A stretch of DNA of 42,133 nucleotides, taken from contig JAAZEL010000029.1 of NCBI GenBank assembly GCA_012512325.1, forward strand, positions 1-42,133. Reading direction: 5' to 3'. The stretch is from Candidatus Fermentithermobacillaceae bacterium (GTDB lineage Bacteria > Bacillota > Sulfobacillia > Fermentithermobacillales > Fermentithermobacillaceae). Below, one piece after another: positions 829-9,485 of this stretch (positions are counted from its first letter, which is position 1; each line of letters starts with the position of its first letter). The notes below the pieces were generated by a model. That model had not been told where the DNA came from. It saw only the letters and a list, made by a program, of their open reading frames with translations, and did not search any database. The translations under genes and the position numbers were made by a program.

Positions 829-1860
829 ATGTTCATACTCGGAATCGATACGTCTTGCGATGATACATCCTGCGCTGTGGTCAGAGACGGGCGGCAGGTC
901 TTGTCGAATATCGTTTCTTCCCAGACCAAGCTCCACGAGAAATTCGGAGGGGTTGTACCTGAGATCGCTTCCAGGAGGCATCTGGAGGTACTCATCCCCG
1001 CTTGCAGTGAAGCTCTCGAGCAGGCAGGTGTCACCTTGAAACAGATCGACCTTATAGCCGTGACAAACGGCCCCGGCCTGCTGGGGTCGTTGCTGGTAGG
1101 GGTTGGTTTTGCCAAGGGTATGGCCCATGCTGCCCAGGTGCCCTTGATCGACGTCCACCATATCGCTGGGCACATCTACGCCAACTTCCTTGGGGAGGAA
1201 CTCCCTGAGTTCCCCGTGCTCAACCTGGTGGTGTCAGGAGGCCATTCTGAGCTGATCCTTATGGAAGCCCATGGGCATTTCACCTTGCTGGGTGAAACCA
1301 GGGATGATGCCGCCGGTGAAGTGTTCGACAAGGTTGCCAGGGAAATGGGGCTCGGCTTTCCGGGAGGTCCTTATCTGGACCGGTTGGCCGAGACAGGTGA
1401 TCCTGGCAAGATCCCTTTCCCCTTGCCGAAAATCCGGGGTTCCAAATATGACTACAGCTTCTCGGGGATTAAGACCAGGGCTTTGCTGGAGTTTGAGGCG
1501 GGAGACAAGAGCGAAGGATTCAAGGCTGACCTGGCTGCGGGTTTCAGGAAGGGCGTGGTGAACCAGCTGTTGAATCCGGTGGAGGAATTGCTTAAAGAAA
1601 CGGGTGCCAGGAGTTTCGCCCTTTCAGGCGGGGCTGCGGCTAATGCGCTCCTCAGGCGGAAAAGCCGGGAACTGGCGACGAGGCTGGGTATCCCATTGTT
1701 CATCCCCCCGATGGAACTGTGTACAGACAACGGAGCCATGATAGCCGCAGCGGGTTACTACAAATACAAGCTGACAGGGGGAGGCTGGTCTGAAACCGAA
1801 AGTTCCATGATGGAATGCTCAGCCGGCCTTGAGCTCCGGTCGTGGGAGGAGACTGCCTGA
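829..1860 (+). CDS. tsaD: tRNA N6-adenosine threonylcarbamoyltransferase TsaD
   Basis: MFILGIDTSCDDTSCAVV..., HHIAGHIYANFL, NLVVSGGHSELIL; ATG at 829 preceded by GAGAGGTG. Confidence 0.95.
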   Translation: MFILGIDTSCDDTSCAVVRDGRQVLSNIVSSQTKLHEKFGGVVPEIASRRHLEVLIPACSEALEQAGVTLKQIDLIAVTNGPGLLGSLLVGVGFAKGMAHAAQVPLIDVHHIAGHIYANFLGEELPEFPVLNLVVSGGHSELILMEAHGHFTLLGETRDDAAGEVFDKVAREMGLGFPGGPYLDRLAETGDPGKIPFPLPKIRGSKYDYSFSGIKTRALLEFEAGDKSEGFKADLAAGFRKGVVNQLLNPVEELLKETGARSFALSGGAAANALLRRKSRELATRLGIPLFIPPMELCTDNGAMIAAAGYYKYKLTGGGWSETESSMMECSAGLELRSWEETA

Positions 1861-3437: not shown

Positions 3438-4499
3438 TTGGACTTGAAAGAGTTCCTGACGAAGGCGTCCTTGGCCCATGGGGTATCAGGTTTTGAGTTC
3501 ATGGATGTTGCCTCATTGGTGCGGGATGCCATGGACGGCCTGGTGGATGAAGTCAAGGTGGATTTACTGGGCAACGTTGTAGGAGTGAAATACGGCGAAG
3601 GAGCCCAGCCCAGGCCCAAGATAATGCTGGCAGGCCATATGGACGAAATCGGCCTGATCATCACTAAGATCGAAGAAGGCGGCTTTCTGAGGTTCGCCCC
3701 TGTAGGCGGGGTGGACCAGCGGGTGCTGCCTGCCCATGAAGTGATAGTGTACGGCAGGAGGCCCCTTACGGGTGTAATAGGCGTCAAGCCGCCCCATCTC
3801 ACCTCACCGGAAGAGGCTAAAAAGGCCTACAAGATGGAAGACCTATTCATCGACGTAGGATTACCTGAGGAAGAAGTGCGAGAACTGGTCCGCGTGGGCG
3901 ACGTGGCGACCTTCAAGCGCCAGGTGAGCGAGCTCATGGGCGACAGGTTTTCAGGCAAAGCCCTCGACGACAGGGCGGGGGTTGCGGTTATCCTGGTTTG
4001 CCTCGAAGAGCTGCGCAAGTACAAAGTAGATGCAGATGTGTATGCAGTAGCTACCTCCCAAGAGGAAATAGGTTGCAGGGGCGCTGTTGTCTCGACCTAC
4101 GGCATCGAGCCTGACATCGGTATAGCTATCGACGTGTGCCACGGTGAGACGCCGGGGGTGCCTGAGTGGAGGACTTCGTCGGTGGGGAAGGGGCCGGCCC
4201 TGGCCCAAGGGGGTAACATCCATCCTAAGGTATTTGCCGCCCTCGAAAAAGCAGCTAAAGAGATTGGCATAAAAGCGCAGAAGGAGATTGCTCCTGCAGC
4301 CACAGGCACCGACGCATGGGTCATGCAGATCTCCCGGGCAGGGGTAGCAACCGGCCTGATTTCAATTCCTTTGCGGTACATGCACACATCCGTTGAGACC
4401 CTCGCGATCAGCGACGTGGAGGATGCAGGCAGGCTGTTGGCCAGGTTCATTGCGTCTGTTGACGCAGGCTTTGTGAAGGAGCTGAAGTCATGGATCTGA
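3438..4499 (+). CDS. M42 family metallopeptidase (paralog 1)
   Basis: AGHMDEIGLIIT, GFLRFAPVGGVDQRVLPA, ALDDRAG, SQEEIGCRGA, RYMHTSVET; TTG start at 3438 after AGGAGG. Confidence 0.88.
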   Translation: MDLKEFLTKASLAHGVSGFEFMDVASLVRDAMDGLVDEVKVDLLGNVVGVKYGEGAQPRPKIMLAGHMDEIGLIITKIEEGGFLRFAPVGGVDQRVLPAHEVIVYGRRPLTGVIGVKPPHLTSPEEAKKAYKMEDLFIDVGLPEEEVRELVRVGDVATFKRQVSELMGDRFSGKALDDRAGVAVILVCLEELRKYKVDADVYAVATSQEEIGCRGAVVSTYGIEPDIGIAIDVCHGETPGVPEWRTSSVGKGPALAQGGNIHPKVFAALEKAAKEIGIKAQKEIAPAATGTDAWVMQISRAGVATGLISIPLRYMHTSVETLAISDVEDAGRLLARFIASVDAGFVKELKSWI

Positions 4500-5509
4500 A
4501 AACTCTTACATCCCTTTCAGGGGTTTCAGGAAACGAATATGAAGCCCGGTCTGCTATAATCAAGCAACTTGAGTCCATGGGCATTTCATACGAATGCGAC
4601 GTAATGGGGAATGTGATCGCCAAGAAGGGCGACAGGGGTCCAAAAGTGCTGCTTGATGCCCATATGGACGAAGTAGGCCTCATGATAACCCACGTTGAAA
4701 AGAACGGGTTCTTGAGGTTCGCCCCTGTGGGCGGTATAGATCCGCGGGTATTGGTTTCCAAGCGCGTGCTTGTAGGCAAGGAGAAGATTCCGGGTGTGAT
4801 AGGGGCCAAGGCCATTCACCTCCAGGAACGAGATGAACGCACCCAGGTGATACCCATAGACCGGCTGTTTATCGATATCGGAGCGGAATCCGGTGAGCAG
4901 GCTCAAGGCAAGGTGAAGGCAGGAGACTACGTGGTTTTTGACACCGAGTACCAAGAGCTGTCCCCGGGGATCATAAAGGCCAAGGCTCTGGATGACAGGG
5001 TTGGGTGCGCCCTTCTGTTTGAAGTGCTGAAACAGGACTGGAAAGAGATACAGCTTTATGCCGTGTTTGCAGTGCAGGAAGAAGTAGGGCTGAGGGGTGC
5101 AAGGGTGGCCGCTTTTGCCGTCGAGCCTGATATGGGCATAGCCCTTGAAGGCACGGTTTGCGCCGACATACCCGGGACGGACAAGGAATTCCAGGCGACC
5201 AGGTTAGGCAAAGGGGTTGCCCTGAGCATAATGGACAGGGGCTCCATACCCGATCGCAAGATGCTCAACCAGCTTGTGAAACTTGCCGAGGACGAGGGGA
5301 TACCCTACCAGTTCAGGGAAGCAACTTCAGGGGGCAATGATGCCGGCGCCATCCAGCAAACCAAGGCAGGTTGCCCTGTGGCTTCAGTATCGGTACCTTG
5401 TCGCTACATACATACCCCCTGTTCCCTGATGTCAACGTCAGACTTTGAAGCTGCGCGTAAACTGCTCATCAAGTTCCTAGAGAGTGTTGAGGGAGGTTTC
5501 AGACCGTGA
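4490..5509 (+). CDS. M42 family metallopeptidase (paralog 2)
   Basis: DAHMDEVGLMITHVEKNGFLRFAPVGG, ALDDRVG, VQEEVGLRGA, RYIHTP. Confidence 0.88.
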   Translation: MDLKTLTSLSGVSGNEYEARSAIIKQLESMGISYECDVMGNVIAKKGDRGPKVLLDAHMDEVGLMITHVEKNGFLRFAPVGGIDPRVLVSKRVLVGKEKIPGVIGAKAIHLQERDERTQVIPIDRLFIDIGAESGEQAQGKVKAGDYVVFDTEYQELSPGIIKAKALDDRVGCALLFEVLKQDWKEIQLYAVFAVQEEVGLRGARVAAFAVEPDMGIALEGTVCADIPGTDKEFQATRLGKGVALSIMDRGSIPDRKMLNQLVKLAEDEGIPYQFREATSGGNDAGAIQQTKAGCPVASVSVPCRYIHTPCSLMSTSDFEAARKLLIKFLESVEGGFRP

Positions 5510-6501
5510 AAGACCTTATCAAGAGATTGACAGAAGCTTTCGGGCCTTCAGGCTCAGAGGGGCCGGTGAGGGAAGTCATCACGAAAGAAGTCGAACCATA
5601 TGTGGACGAGATCAGAGTAGATGCTTTGGGTAACCTTATATGTCTCAAGAAGGGCAGCGGCGGTGGCAAGAAGGTAATCCTTGACGCCCACATGGATGAA
5701 ATCGGGGTTATTGTGACCCATATTGACGAAAAGGGTTTCCTGCGATTTGCCAGTGTCGGTGGAGTATACCCTGTGGTCACCCTGGGGCAACGGGTGTATT
5801 TTGAAAACGGCACCTTCGGCGTTATCGGTTCCGAAAAGCTCGATGACATAAAAGACCTGAAACTGGACAAGTTGTTTATCGACATCGGTGCCGCCAACAG
5901 GGAAGAAGCTTCCCAGAAAGTCAAGGTAGGCGACATGGGTGCTTTCTTCCAGCCTGCAGTTGACCTGGGCAACCGCGTGGTAGCCAAAGCCATGGATGAC
6001 AGGATCGGTTGCGTAGTGGTAATTGAGGCTTTGAAGCGCCTGAAGCAAACCCAGCATGATATCTATGCGGTGTTTGCGACCCAGGAAGAGGTCGGACTTA
6101 GGGGCGCCAGAGTGGCTGCTTACGGCATAGAGCCGGATGTGGGCATAGCTTTTGACGTTACAAGCACGGGAGATACGCCCAAGGCCCGCACCATGGACGT
6201 CTCCCTTGGCAAAGGCGCGGCTATCAAGGTCAAGGATTCCAGCCTTGTCTGCCATCCGGGGCTCAGGGACTATCTTGTGAAGCTTGCCGAGGCAAAGGGC
6301 ATCCCGTACCAGATGGAAGTACTGGAGTGGGGAGGCACTGACTCAGGTGCCATCCAGCTTACCAGGGCGGGAGTACCGGCTGCGGTCATATCCATTCCGT
6401 CCAGGTACATCCACAGCCCCAGCGAGATGGTGGACATTGGAGACGTAGAAGCTTGCGTCAAGCTTTGCGTAGCCGCATGTGAAAGCCCGCTTGATTTCTA
6501 A
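5506..6501 (+). CDS. M42 family metallopeptidase (paralog 3)
   Basis: DAHMDEIGVIVTHIDEKGFLRFASVGG, AMDDRIG, TQEEVGLRGA, RYIHSPSE. Confidence 0.88.
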   Translation: MKDLIKRLTEAFGPSGSEGPVREVITKEVEPYVDEIRVDALGNLICLKKGSGGGKKVILDAHMDEIGVIVTHIDEKGFLRFASVGGVYPVVTLGQRVYFENGTFGVIGSEKLDDIKDLKLDKLFIDIGAANREEASQKVKVGDMGAFFQPAVDLGNRVVAKAMDDRIGCVVVIEALKRLKQTQHDIYAVFATQEEVGLRGARVAAYGIEPDVGIAFDVTSTGDTPKARTMDVSLGKGAAIKVKDSSLVCHPGLRDYLVKLAEAKGIPYQMEVLEWGGTDSGAIQLTRAGVPAAVISIPSRYIHSPSEMVDIGDVEACVKLCVAACESPLDF

Positions 6502-6562: not shown

Positions 6563-6641
6563 GGCCACATAGGTCGCAAGGCCACACAGGTCACATAGGG
6601 CACATAGGCCACGTAAGCCACATAGGTCACATAGGTCGCAA
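6563..6641. repeat. 9-bp tandem repeat array (GGYCACATA), ~9 units
   Basis: ggccacata|ggtcgcaa|ggccacaca|ggtcacata|gggcacata|ggccacgta|agccacata|ggtcacata|ggtcgcaa. Confidence 0.85.
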
Positions 6642-6660: not shown

Positions 6661-6696
6661 AGGGCGTTTCCCCCTGATAATAGGGGGAAATGCCCT
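6661..6696. other. Strong hairpin (15-bp stem, 6-nt loop)
   Basis: agggcgtttccccct-gataat-agggggaaatgccct; one G/T wobble; no following T-run. Confidence 0.7.
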
Positions 6697-6763
6697 CTAC
6701 GCTTCTAGCATTCTAATACCTGTACAGACTGCACTAGGGGACTGTGGAGAAGTGTGTCTGCGG

Positions 6764-7127
6764 AGTGCACCACATGCACCATTTAGGAGTGATTTCCGCC
6801 TAGCCAGTCCAACATGGTGCACCATGTGCATCAATCCAGTGCCCAACAGCAGCACAATGGCTCACCACATGTACCGATCTTGTCCGGAAGGACACTTGAT
6901 CGCCGCAAAATGGCCCACCAGATGTACCAAACCAGTGCTCAACAGTAAGAGAATGGCTCACCACATGTACCATTCTTGTCTGGAAGGACACCTGATCACC
7001 GCAAAATGGCACACTACGTGCGCCATACCGGCCTCCAACAGCTGCAGAATGGTACATCAGGTGCACCATTCTGACCGATAATCCGCTTGTCAAAAGATAA
7101 AACGGTGCACCTGGCGCACCGTTTATC
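6764..7127. repeat. Array of ~8 imperfect ~23-bp palindromes separated by two alternating linker types
   Basis: Palindromes at ~6764, 6812, 6855, 6909, 6951, 7004, 7047 and 7096; e.g. gaatggtacatcaggtgcaccattc and gaatggctcaccacatgtaccattc. Same-type units recur every ~96 bp. Confidence 0.85.
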
Positions 7128-7268: not shown

Positions 7269-9485
7269 TCAGCCTGACGCAGGAGAGAAGTACTCCTCAA
7301 GCGCCCTAAAAATGCCCCTGGCTGCCGCCTCTTGGATGTAATCTTGCCTGAGCAAGTTCTCTTCCCTTGGGTTGGACAAGTACATCACTTCCACCAAGAC
7401 CGAAGGGCAAGCGGATTCCCTGTTGACGAAGAAATTCGAGTCTTTGACTCCCCTGTCAACGGTGCCGAGGCTTGCAGTCAGGTGTTTCTGGATTAGTGCA
7501 GCCAGCCGTCTTGACTCACACGTGTTCAAAGTCTGGCTGCAGATGTAAGAGGTTGTGCCGGCAGTCTGGGGGTTGCTGTGCCAATCGTTATGGATCGAGA
7601 CGAAGGCGTGGGCTTTATGGGACCATGCGGCCCTCTTGGCCAGATCTCCTGAATATTCGTCGATATCAGGCTTCCAATCTTCAGGGGGAGTGGCATCCTC
7701 AAACTCGCCCAGCCTGGTCAGAATCACCGCCGCTCCCGCCGCCTCGAGCATGTCACGGAGCTTAACTGCGATTCTCCAGTTTACCGTGCGTTCCTGGTAG
7801 CCTGTGGGACCAGATGCTCCTGGATCGTTGCCCCCGTGTCCTGGGTCGACCACGATCACCTTGCCCGCGAGTCCCGGGTTGGGGAAGAAGGCCTCCAGGG
7901 AATTGGCGTTTTTCTTAAGCAGGTAAGTGCCGCTCAAGGATGCGTCCAGCGACAAGCTAACCCCGTCGTTTGTGGTACCTATATTCACCTGTCGGACCAG
8001 GTCGCCGCTGACCAGGGAAGCTTGTCCCGAGTAAGAAGCGCCTGGCAGGAACATTGTGACCGAGCTGCCGTTCCTGGTGACAGTGGGCCAGGTATACCCC
8101 AGGGTGTGAACCGTTAGCACTTCCCCGTCGTCTTCACGTCTCACCTCTACTCCGGTAATGGTAGGTGCAAAACCCAGCACCACTTTTCCCGGTGACTGTT
8201 CCTGCACCACATACGAAGGTGTTTCGGAGAACTTAATGGTCACGTCGCTTCCTTCGATCCGAACCGATTCGAACTCGTATGCGTTTATGTCAAGCCTTCC
8301 CGCCGTCCTGAAAAACTCAGAGGTGCTTATTATTAGCGTATTACCTTCATTGCGAATAAGCCGGCAGGTTTCGAACGGCCCCTGTAGGGTAAGGGTGCGC
8401 ACGCTTGAGCTGGCGTCAAGGGCCACCGAAAAGCTGGGGGAGGTCCCGGCAGGAGCGCCGGTGGTCAGCCATGATGCCACCCAGCCTACCACGCCTTTGG
8501 GGGAGATTCCCCTGATCCAGCGGTCCCGCACTTCAAGCACGCGTATTATGTCGCCCTTCTGTACCATGGAGATTGCAGGATAATTGGTGCCAGGACCTGC
8601 CCTGAAGTTTACGTCTGTGGCGTTTACCGTAGTTGAACTGTATTTTCCAAGGGACCACGAAGTCTCGGATACCCCGAAGGAAAGGGCAGGGTCATCTACT
8701 GCGGAAATCACTGAGTCAGGGCCGTACACCCAGCCTCTTATCCCCGCTGAAGTCTGGACTGCAATCCAGGCTCCTCGTGAAGTGATGTATTTTGCAGAAT
8801 CCCCGGATTTCAAGGTGACCATGACAGGGGAGCCTTTGATAGGCCGCTGGTATACAGTCACCGAACCGCTCCTGGGGCCCACCACCATGTCACCGGCCAC
8901 AGGGATGGTTTCCTCGATGACAGGGAGGGTGAGTTGGAGGAGCTCTTCAAATATCCACGCTGTTCTGCCGCCACCAATAGACACCCTGATCCAGTCGTTC
9001 CGTTTGGCTTCGGCAGGATATGTATGGCCCCTCTGGGTCATGCCCAACACCGGGTAGTCTGCGCCCGGTCCCTGGCGCATGTTTACGTCGGTCCTGGTTA
9101 TGACCGCTGTTATGCCCCCGGAACTCAGGTCTATGTCAACGAGCCACGCGGCAATCCACGCCTCTTTGCCTTTGTATGAGATCTTGAGCCAATCATTCTG
9201 GATGGCCAGTATGTCCAGCCAGGTACCTTCGAGCACCGTCCCTAAGACGCTGTGGCTGGTTCCAGGGCCCGACCTTAGATTACACACATCTCCCACTACA
9301 ACACCTTTGAACCCTGAGAAATCAGCAGGTGTAAGAGGGGCGTTGCCAGCGGATAAAGCGGTTACAGGATGCAATACCCCGCTCAGGGCCACAGCCAGGA
9401 GGAGGGTCCCCAGCAAGACCCGGCGGGGTGCTCTTGACAAAGGTTTTGTCGAATTGATCGAAATATGTCGGATATGTTTGGCCAT
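7269..9485 (-). CDS. N-acetylmuramoyl-L-alanine amidase with multiple SH3b domains, AMIN-like domain and amidase_3 domain
   Basis: Signal peptide; repeated VNMRQGPGADYPVLGM / VNFRAGPGTNYPAISM SH3b motifs; IVVDPGHGGNDPGASG, FVSIHNDWHSNPQTAGTTSY, VLVEVMYLSNPREENLL. Confidence 0.93.
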   Translation of the reverse strand: MAKHIRHISINSTKPLSRAPRRVLLGTLLLAVALSGVLHPVTALSAGNAPLTPADFSGFKGVVVGDVCNLRSGPGTSHSVLGTVLEGTWLDILAIQNDWLKISYKGKEAWIAAWLVDIDLSSGGITAVITRTDVNMRQGPGADYPVLGMTQRGHTYPAEAKRNDWIRVSIGGGRTAWIFEELLQLTLPVIEETIPVAGDMVVGPRSGSVTVYQRPIKGSPVMVTLKSGDSAKYITSRGAWIAVQTSAGIRGWVYGPDSVISAVDDPALSFGVSETSWSLGKYSSTTVNATDVNFRAGPGTNYPAISMVQKGDIIRVLEVRDRWIRGISPKGVVGWVASWLTTGAPAGTSPSFSVALDASSSVRTLTLQGPFETCRLIRNEGNTLIISTSEFFRTAGRLDINAYEFESVRIEGSDVTIKFSETPSYVVQEQSPGKVVLGFAPTITGVEVRREDDGEVLTVHTLGYTWPTVTRNGSSVTMFLPGASYSGQASLVSGDLVRQVNIGTTNDGVSLSLDASLSGTYLLKKNANSLEAFFPNPGLAGKVIVVDPGHGGNDPGASGPTGYQERTVNWRIAVKLRDMLEAAGAAVILTRLGEFEDATPPEDWKPDIDEYSGDLAKRAAWSHKAHAFVSIHNDWHSNPQTAGTTSYICSQTLNTCESRRLAALIQKHLTASLGTVDRGVKDSNFFVNRESACPSVLVEVMYLSNPREENLLRQDYIQEAAARGIFRALEEYFSPASG

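Follow-up and report, generated by a model that had tools for sequence, protein, structure and literature searches.

Phased palindrome arrays in Bacillota and their association with genes for a putative MarR-type/homing-type nuclease

Eight palindromes in an intergenic region of a Candidatus Fermentithermobacillaceae genome form one of a dozen or more arrays in this bacterial chromosome whose units are separated by whole turns of the DNA helix. Such arrays recur in other Bacillota next to genes for an undescribed MarR-type/homing-type nuclease, predicted as such from sequence alone, an association which suggests, although it has not been shown by experiment, a previously unrecognized repeat-plus-nuclease system. 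A literature search, limited to open-access text, found no description of it.

The array and its distribution

The window, that is, the entire stretch of 42,133 nucleotides that was analyzed (contig JAAZEL010000029.1 of assembly GCA_012512325.1), is contig 9 of a 1.66-Mb assembly in 92 contigs, denoted here as G000. Other genomes compared are likewise given G numbers, their contigs C numbers, and individual loci L numbers. The closest relatives by the M42 gene are recorded as Candidatus Fermentithermobacillaceae, Bacillota. The eight 23-bp palindromes follow each other at steps of 52, 43, 53, 43, 53, 43, and 53 bp (Table 1), so that the composite period is 96 bp, and two types of linker alternate between them. 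The original prediction, which described about eight imperfect palindromes with two alternating linkers and a period of about 96 bp between the convergent 3′ ends of an M42 peptidase cluster and an amidase gene, is thus confirmed as an observation. Between the M42 genes and the array lie a terminator-like hairpin and, as seen by eye, a short degenerate tandem repeat.

Table 1. Positions of the array, its component parts, and associated features
Sequence	Positions	Strand	Feature
Window	6761..7123		Whole array of eight 23-bp palindromes, centers alternately 43 and 52-53 bp apart (about 4 and 5 helical turns)
Window	6761..6783		Palindrome 1, CGGAGTGCACCACATGCACCATT (left arm degraded)
Window	6813..6835		Palindrome 2, CATGGTGCACCATGTGCATCAAT
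Window	6856..6878		Palindrome 3, AATGGCTCACCACATGTACCGAT
Window	6909..6931		Palindrome 4, AATGGCCCACCAGATGTACCAAA
Window	6952..6974		Palindrome 5, AATGGCTCACCACATGTACCATT
Window	7005..7027		Palindrome 6, AATGGCACACTACGTGCGCCATA
Window	7048..7070		Palindrome 7, AATGGTACATCAGGTGCACCATT
Window	7101..7123		Palindrome 8, AACGGTGCACCTGGCGCACCGTT
Window	6836..6855		Short 20-bp linker (type B); further copies at 6932-6951 and 7028-7047
Window	6879..6908		Long 30-bp linker (type A); near copy at 6975-7004; 7071-7100 has the same length but another sequence
Window	6568-6640		Short degenerate tandem repeat (CACATAGGTC-like, units of about 9-10 bp) between the last M42 gene and the terminator-like hairpin
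Window	6661..6696	+	Terminator-like hairpin (inverted repeat) after the M42 genes, upstream of the array
Window	5506..6501	+	Third M42 peptidase gene, left neighbor (3′ end faces the array)
Window	7269..9485	-	SH3-domain N-acetylmuramoyl-L-alanine amidase (SH3/Amidase_3) gene, right neighbor (3′ end faces the array)
G000 contig 19	6025-6792	-	wHTH-nuclease gene beside another array of the same motif
G012 contig 123 (L205)	399-688 and 4492-4833		Two similar arrays near the two ends of one 4.9-kb contig, with the nuclease and a UDP-sugar-dehydrogenase-like gene between them
G008 contig 13 (L241)	about 1005-1200		Regular palindrome array with 59-bp steps beside a nuclease homologue
G037 (L275)	22 onwards		Nine copies of a short motif at 74-75-bp steps near a nuclease homologue; could be a CRISPR array

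The array is far beyond chance expectation and is not a local duplication. The pattern TGGYNCAYNNNRTGNRCCA, with at most one mismatch, occurs 92 times in the genome against 4 occurrences of the reversed control pattern, and the sites cluster in arrays on at least a dozen contigs. These arrays are intergenic and lie in convergent, divergent, and co-directional gaps, which argues against a role tied to convergent genes or termination. Three other genomes of the genus have 76, 80, and 150 sites and a fourth has 19, whereas most other relatives are near their control level. With a stricter pattern of two palindromes at 53 bp, applied to 154 genomes of the class, multiple matches are confined to this family; they include a genus (g4) with a shifted motif (AGTGGCTCA-N5-TGAGCCACT) and G002 with another, and four distant genomes have one weak match each. 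The absence of copies elsewhere in the genome or in relatives, with no covariation, had been set beforehand as the finding that would reduce the array to a decayed local tandem duplication, but copies are observed both elsewhere in the genome and in relatives. All genomes compared in the genus are draft assemblies in many contigs. Counts per genome are probably low, as contigs often end inside or near an array (for example, G003 C95, C104, and C32 and G000 C81 and C43). In the other direction, the 53-bp array on the 4.9-kb contig 43 of G000 (L154) should not be counted for this genome, because the proteins of that contig are 99% identical to those of G003 contig 100 while other orthologues are about 80-90% identical, so that it is probably misbinned from a G003-like species.

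Arrays occur at orthologous gaps in different species. Examples are the window array with G003 contig 104; G000 C92 with G003 C25 and G001 C1; G000 C55 with G003 C95; G000 C65 with G001 C9; and G004 C14 with G003 C73 and G001 C10. A close relative (L042), by contrast, has the same convergent gap as the window without an array. Linkers at orthologous arrays are mostly unrelated, with the exception of G004 C14 and G003 C73, which are up to 87% identical, so that the arrays appear mostly inherited in place while their linkers turn over. In G003, many linkers are shared between arrays at different loci (169 pairs at 70% or more, 0 in shuffles), so copying between loci also occurs.

Helical phasing and symmetry of the sites

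In 327 sites and 286 spacings from this genus and its nearest relatives, spacings fall at 53 bp (218), 42-43 bp (42), 52 or 54 bp (15), and 63-64 bp (4), with few others. They are quantized in steps of about 10.5 bp (R = 0.96; best period, 10.55 bp). Linkers are unrelated between most arrays, yet A/T tracts recur at about positions 1-2, 9-11, 20-22, and 29-30. The amplitude of this signal at 10.5 bp is 2.8 in G001, where almost all linkers are unrelated, and 3.5 in G003, against shuffled maxima of 1.06 and 0.65, respectively.

Within genomes, mirrored positions of the palindrome arms vary independently of each other. No excess of complementary pairs was found except for pair 8/16 in G001, C.A mismatches are about as common as T.G, and the center (positions 11/13) is anti-complementary. 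This is the pattern given by a two-fold-symmetric protein site in double-stranded DNA rather than by a hairpin, and it argues against structured RNA and single-stranded DNA hairpins as explanations.

The neighboring gene family

In G012, an array lies directly 3′ of a gene for a winged-helix protein, and the best matches to this gene in G000 (C19) and G003 (C95) also lie directly 5′ of an array. In another family, G015 and G016 have a homologue (35-38% identical) accompanied by 22 and 12 palindromes of a different sequence (AGTGCCAAC-N3-GTTTGCACT) at 42-bp steps. Phylum-wide, 29 of 399 genomes hold the gene family. With coding regions masked, a motif-free detector found arrays at 26 of 46 nuclease loci and at none of 88 control loci. 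Curation reduced the positive loci to 21 by setting aside L234, where an 18-bp repeat outscored the true array, L250 (a 33-bp repeat), L275 (75-bp spacing, possibly CRISPR), L279 (GC-rich), and L257 (a near-duplicate of L260). As the nuclease loci are partly related to each other and the controls come mostly from other genomes, this contrast is descriptive. The motifs differ by clade, and the spacings (32, 41, 52, 63-64, 73, 84, and 105 bp) again follow a whole-turn rule with a best period of 10.45 bp, although the associated Rayleigh p-values overstate significance because units within an array are not independent. The 59-bp array at L241 and the 66-bp steps at L263 do not fit whole turns well.

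In three further lineages the motif beside the gene is also dispersed genome-wide. It occurs at 84 sites in G015 and 65 in G016 (control, 0 in each), whereas G014, of the same genus, has 1 site and no family member by single-sequence or profile search. In G274 and G525, TGGTC-N7-GACCA occurs 217 and 226 times against 9 and 7 for controls, and in G487 33 times against 3. In G015 and G016, 198 palindromes in 14 arrays repeat the 42-bp rule, the lack of compensation between arms, and the conservation of orthologous positions. In G016, moreover, a dispersed array on contig 14 is followed, collinearly, by 39 residues of the 3′ end of the nuclease gene (67% identical; DNA, 73-80%), indicating that array and gene end were once copied together.

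The encoded proteins have about 260 residues. The N-terminal part matches MarR-family structures by profile (1.6e-5). For the C-terminal part, no Pfam or NCBIfam model scores above cut-off, and searches of PDB and Pfam recognize only the wHTH, plus a weak DUF2726 match in three members. All 28 members tested nevertheless match phage (PHROG) families named homing, HNH, or intron-encoded nuclease (best, 2.5e-13). Over 45 members, P129, D144, G158, Q160, H161, D181, and K184 are invariant and E142, E155, and R180 nearly so, and this E-D-H-D pattern of putative catalytic residues recalls, as a lead only, the EDxHD/Vsr-type enzymes. Matches to defense systems in PADLOC are weak and of the size expected from the wHTH. 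A phage or plasmid origin is likewise not supported, as no relative was found in the viral contigs and phages searched and only two weak partial matches were found in plasmids.

The association between gene and array is not without exceptions. G001 (93% complete) and G007 (92%) have arrays but no intact cognate nuclease in their assemblies, and G004 (80%) has only fragments; in G001 the orthologous site holds a single perfect palindrome and no gene. Because arrays seem to break short-read assemblies, such absences are uncertain. About half of the nuclease loci show no detectable array, and G010 and G002 have nuclease paralogues without arrays beside them. Further complicating the picture, G487 has the same motif near two paralogues of different clades. 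In G000 contig 78 (L249), G003 contig 52 (L246), and G001 contig 61 (L237), a paralogous nuclease, broken by stops in G000, carries its own array of a second motif (CTGGTC-type, 32/41/64/73-bp steps) in the same genomes.

Interpretation and comparison with known systems

The explanation that best accommodates these observations, and which is held with moderate confidence, is that the arrays are rows of double-stranded, two-fold-symmetric binding sites. In this view, each palindrome would hold one dimer of a MarR-like winged-helix protein, and whole-turn spacing would place the dimers on one face of the DNA so that they could occupy the row cooperatively and bend or bridge it, with bending aided by the phased A/T tracts of the linkers. 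The most likely binder is the product of the wHTH-nuclease gene on contig 19 of the same genome. The arrays probably began beside that gene and spread to other intergenic loci by nuclease-provoked copying and tandem amplification, with those now seen mostly inherited in place. Spread by nuclease-provoked repair copying would be the most economical account of the dispersal, the sharing of linkers between arrays, and the gene remnant. The arrays may benefit the host, through chromosome structure or regulation, or may be selfish; conserved positions with intact palindromes hint at selection. What the analysis itself establishes is the palindromes, their phasing and dispersal, their orthologous positions, and the association of genes and arrays with clade-specific motifs, whereas binding of the sites by this protein, cleavage of DNA, propagation of the arrays by cleavage, and any use to the host are inferences.

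The original prediction is partly supported in its interpretation. It had likened the array to REP/BIME elements of enterobacteria, of a sequence not recognized, and had left mobility, protein binding, and structured RNA as options. A repeated, dispersed, BIME-like organization, unrecognized by sequence, is indeed found, but membership in REP/BIME is not supported. Among the three options, a protein-binding array fits best, and copying between loci is also indicated.

A broader reading remains possible but tentative, somewhat less likely than not on present evidence. A homing-type nuclease with a MarR-like DNA-reading domain may have given rise, in several Bacillota lineages, to its own class of chromosome-wide, helically phased palindrome arrays, a second and independently evolved counterpart of REP-RAYT that would work on double-stranded DNA, with motif and protein changing together and arrays possibly kept for a chromosome-structuring role. 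If true, this would add a second kind of bacterial repeat-plus-nuclease system beside REP-RAYT and give Bacillota, where the tagged REP families were not reported (PMC3733652), their own class of dispersed extragenic palindromes. Because many protein-array pairs with different motifs exist, the specificity and co-evolution of a DNA reader with hundreds of sites would be open to direct test, and the arrays would offer a natural series of cooperative binding arrays with 3-, 4-, 5-, and 6-turn spacings.

Among alternative explanations, the one that survives best, although it is considered unlikely, is that the arrays are binding sites of some other dimeric protein, such as a partition, nucleoid, or regulatory protein, and that the nuclease genes lie next to them for another reason, for example because arrays or their neighborhoods attract homing-type genes. 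The persistence of arrays in G001 and G007 without the nuclease in the assembly, the resemblance to F-plasmid sopC, the conserved positions, and the common type of the N-terminal domain are consistent with this possibility. Against it, the adjacent motif changes with the nuclease lineage and matches the dispersed motif in the same genome, nuclease and arrays are both missing in G014, and none of the 88 control loci carries such arrays.

A transcribed structured RNA, attenuator, or mRNA-stabilizing element is very unlikely. The strand does fold better than shuffles (z = -3.7), as any set of palindromes would, but there is no match in Rfam and no covariation at the arms, the array lies beyond a terminator-like hairpin, the orientation of flanking genes is mixed across arrays, and RNA folding gives no reason for 10.5-bp steps. 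Classical REP/BIME elements mobilized as single-stranded hairpins by a RAYT (HUH Y1) transposase are also very unlikely despite the dispersed mosaic arrays with alternating linkers and the units shared between loci in G003. No Y1_Tnp gene (PF01797) was found in the five genomes of the genus (G000-G004), with one hit in G007 only; among 327 sites, the GTAG and CGTC tags occur at 2 and 17, against about 13 expected for any tetramer; the arms show no compensatory changes; and tagged REPs are reported from other phyla (PMC3733652). A decayed local tandem duplication or a CRISPR-like array without function of its own, suggested by the near identity of many units within an array, is contradicted by the dozen or more arrays per genome with positions conserved and spacing conserved across genera, by degenerate repeats and repeated linkers unlike those of CRISPR, and by the absence of any Cas family among the annotated neighbors.

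Comparison with known systems illustrates both parallels and differences. REP/BIME with RAYT (TnpA-REP), the "REPtron," also consists of dispersed extragenic palindromes in mosaic arrays with alternating linkers and a linked nuclease gene accompanied by its own palindrome type, motif and gene changing together (PMC2817692, PMC3733652), but here the predicted enzyme is a MarR-wHTH/homing-type nuclease rather than HUH, the GTAG/CGTC tag and compensatory arm changes are lacking, and the units are phased by whole turns. The F-plasmid sopC (parS-F) centromere is a row of twelve 43-bp repeats, each with a 16-bp palindrome bound by a dimer, downstream of the gene of its binder (PMC9178275), and rows of palindromes at about 43 bp are a feature of the present arrays as well; in the present case, however, no ParA/ParB genes were seen by Pfam annotation among the array neighbors examined in G000, many arrays lie on one chromosome, steps of 42/43, 53, and 32 bp are mixed, and a nuclease-like gene takes the place of ParB. 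Free-standing homing endonucleases (EDxHD/PD-(D/E)XK type) share the matches of the C-terminal domain, the patchy distribution, and degraded copies (G000 C78 and G004), and the gene remnant beside a dispersed array is only indirect evidence for cleavage of a target and copying into it, whereas the present family is chromosomal in Bacillota, was not found in the phage or viral collections searched, is fused to a MarR-like wHTH, and is accompanied by phased palindrome arrays. Finally, as in MarR-family operators, a winged-helix dimer would be expected to bind a palindrome of about 16-23 bp, but the sites described here form long rows of 4-22 at whole-turn spacing, dispersed and not promoter-linked.
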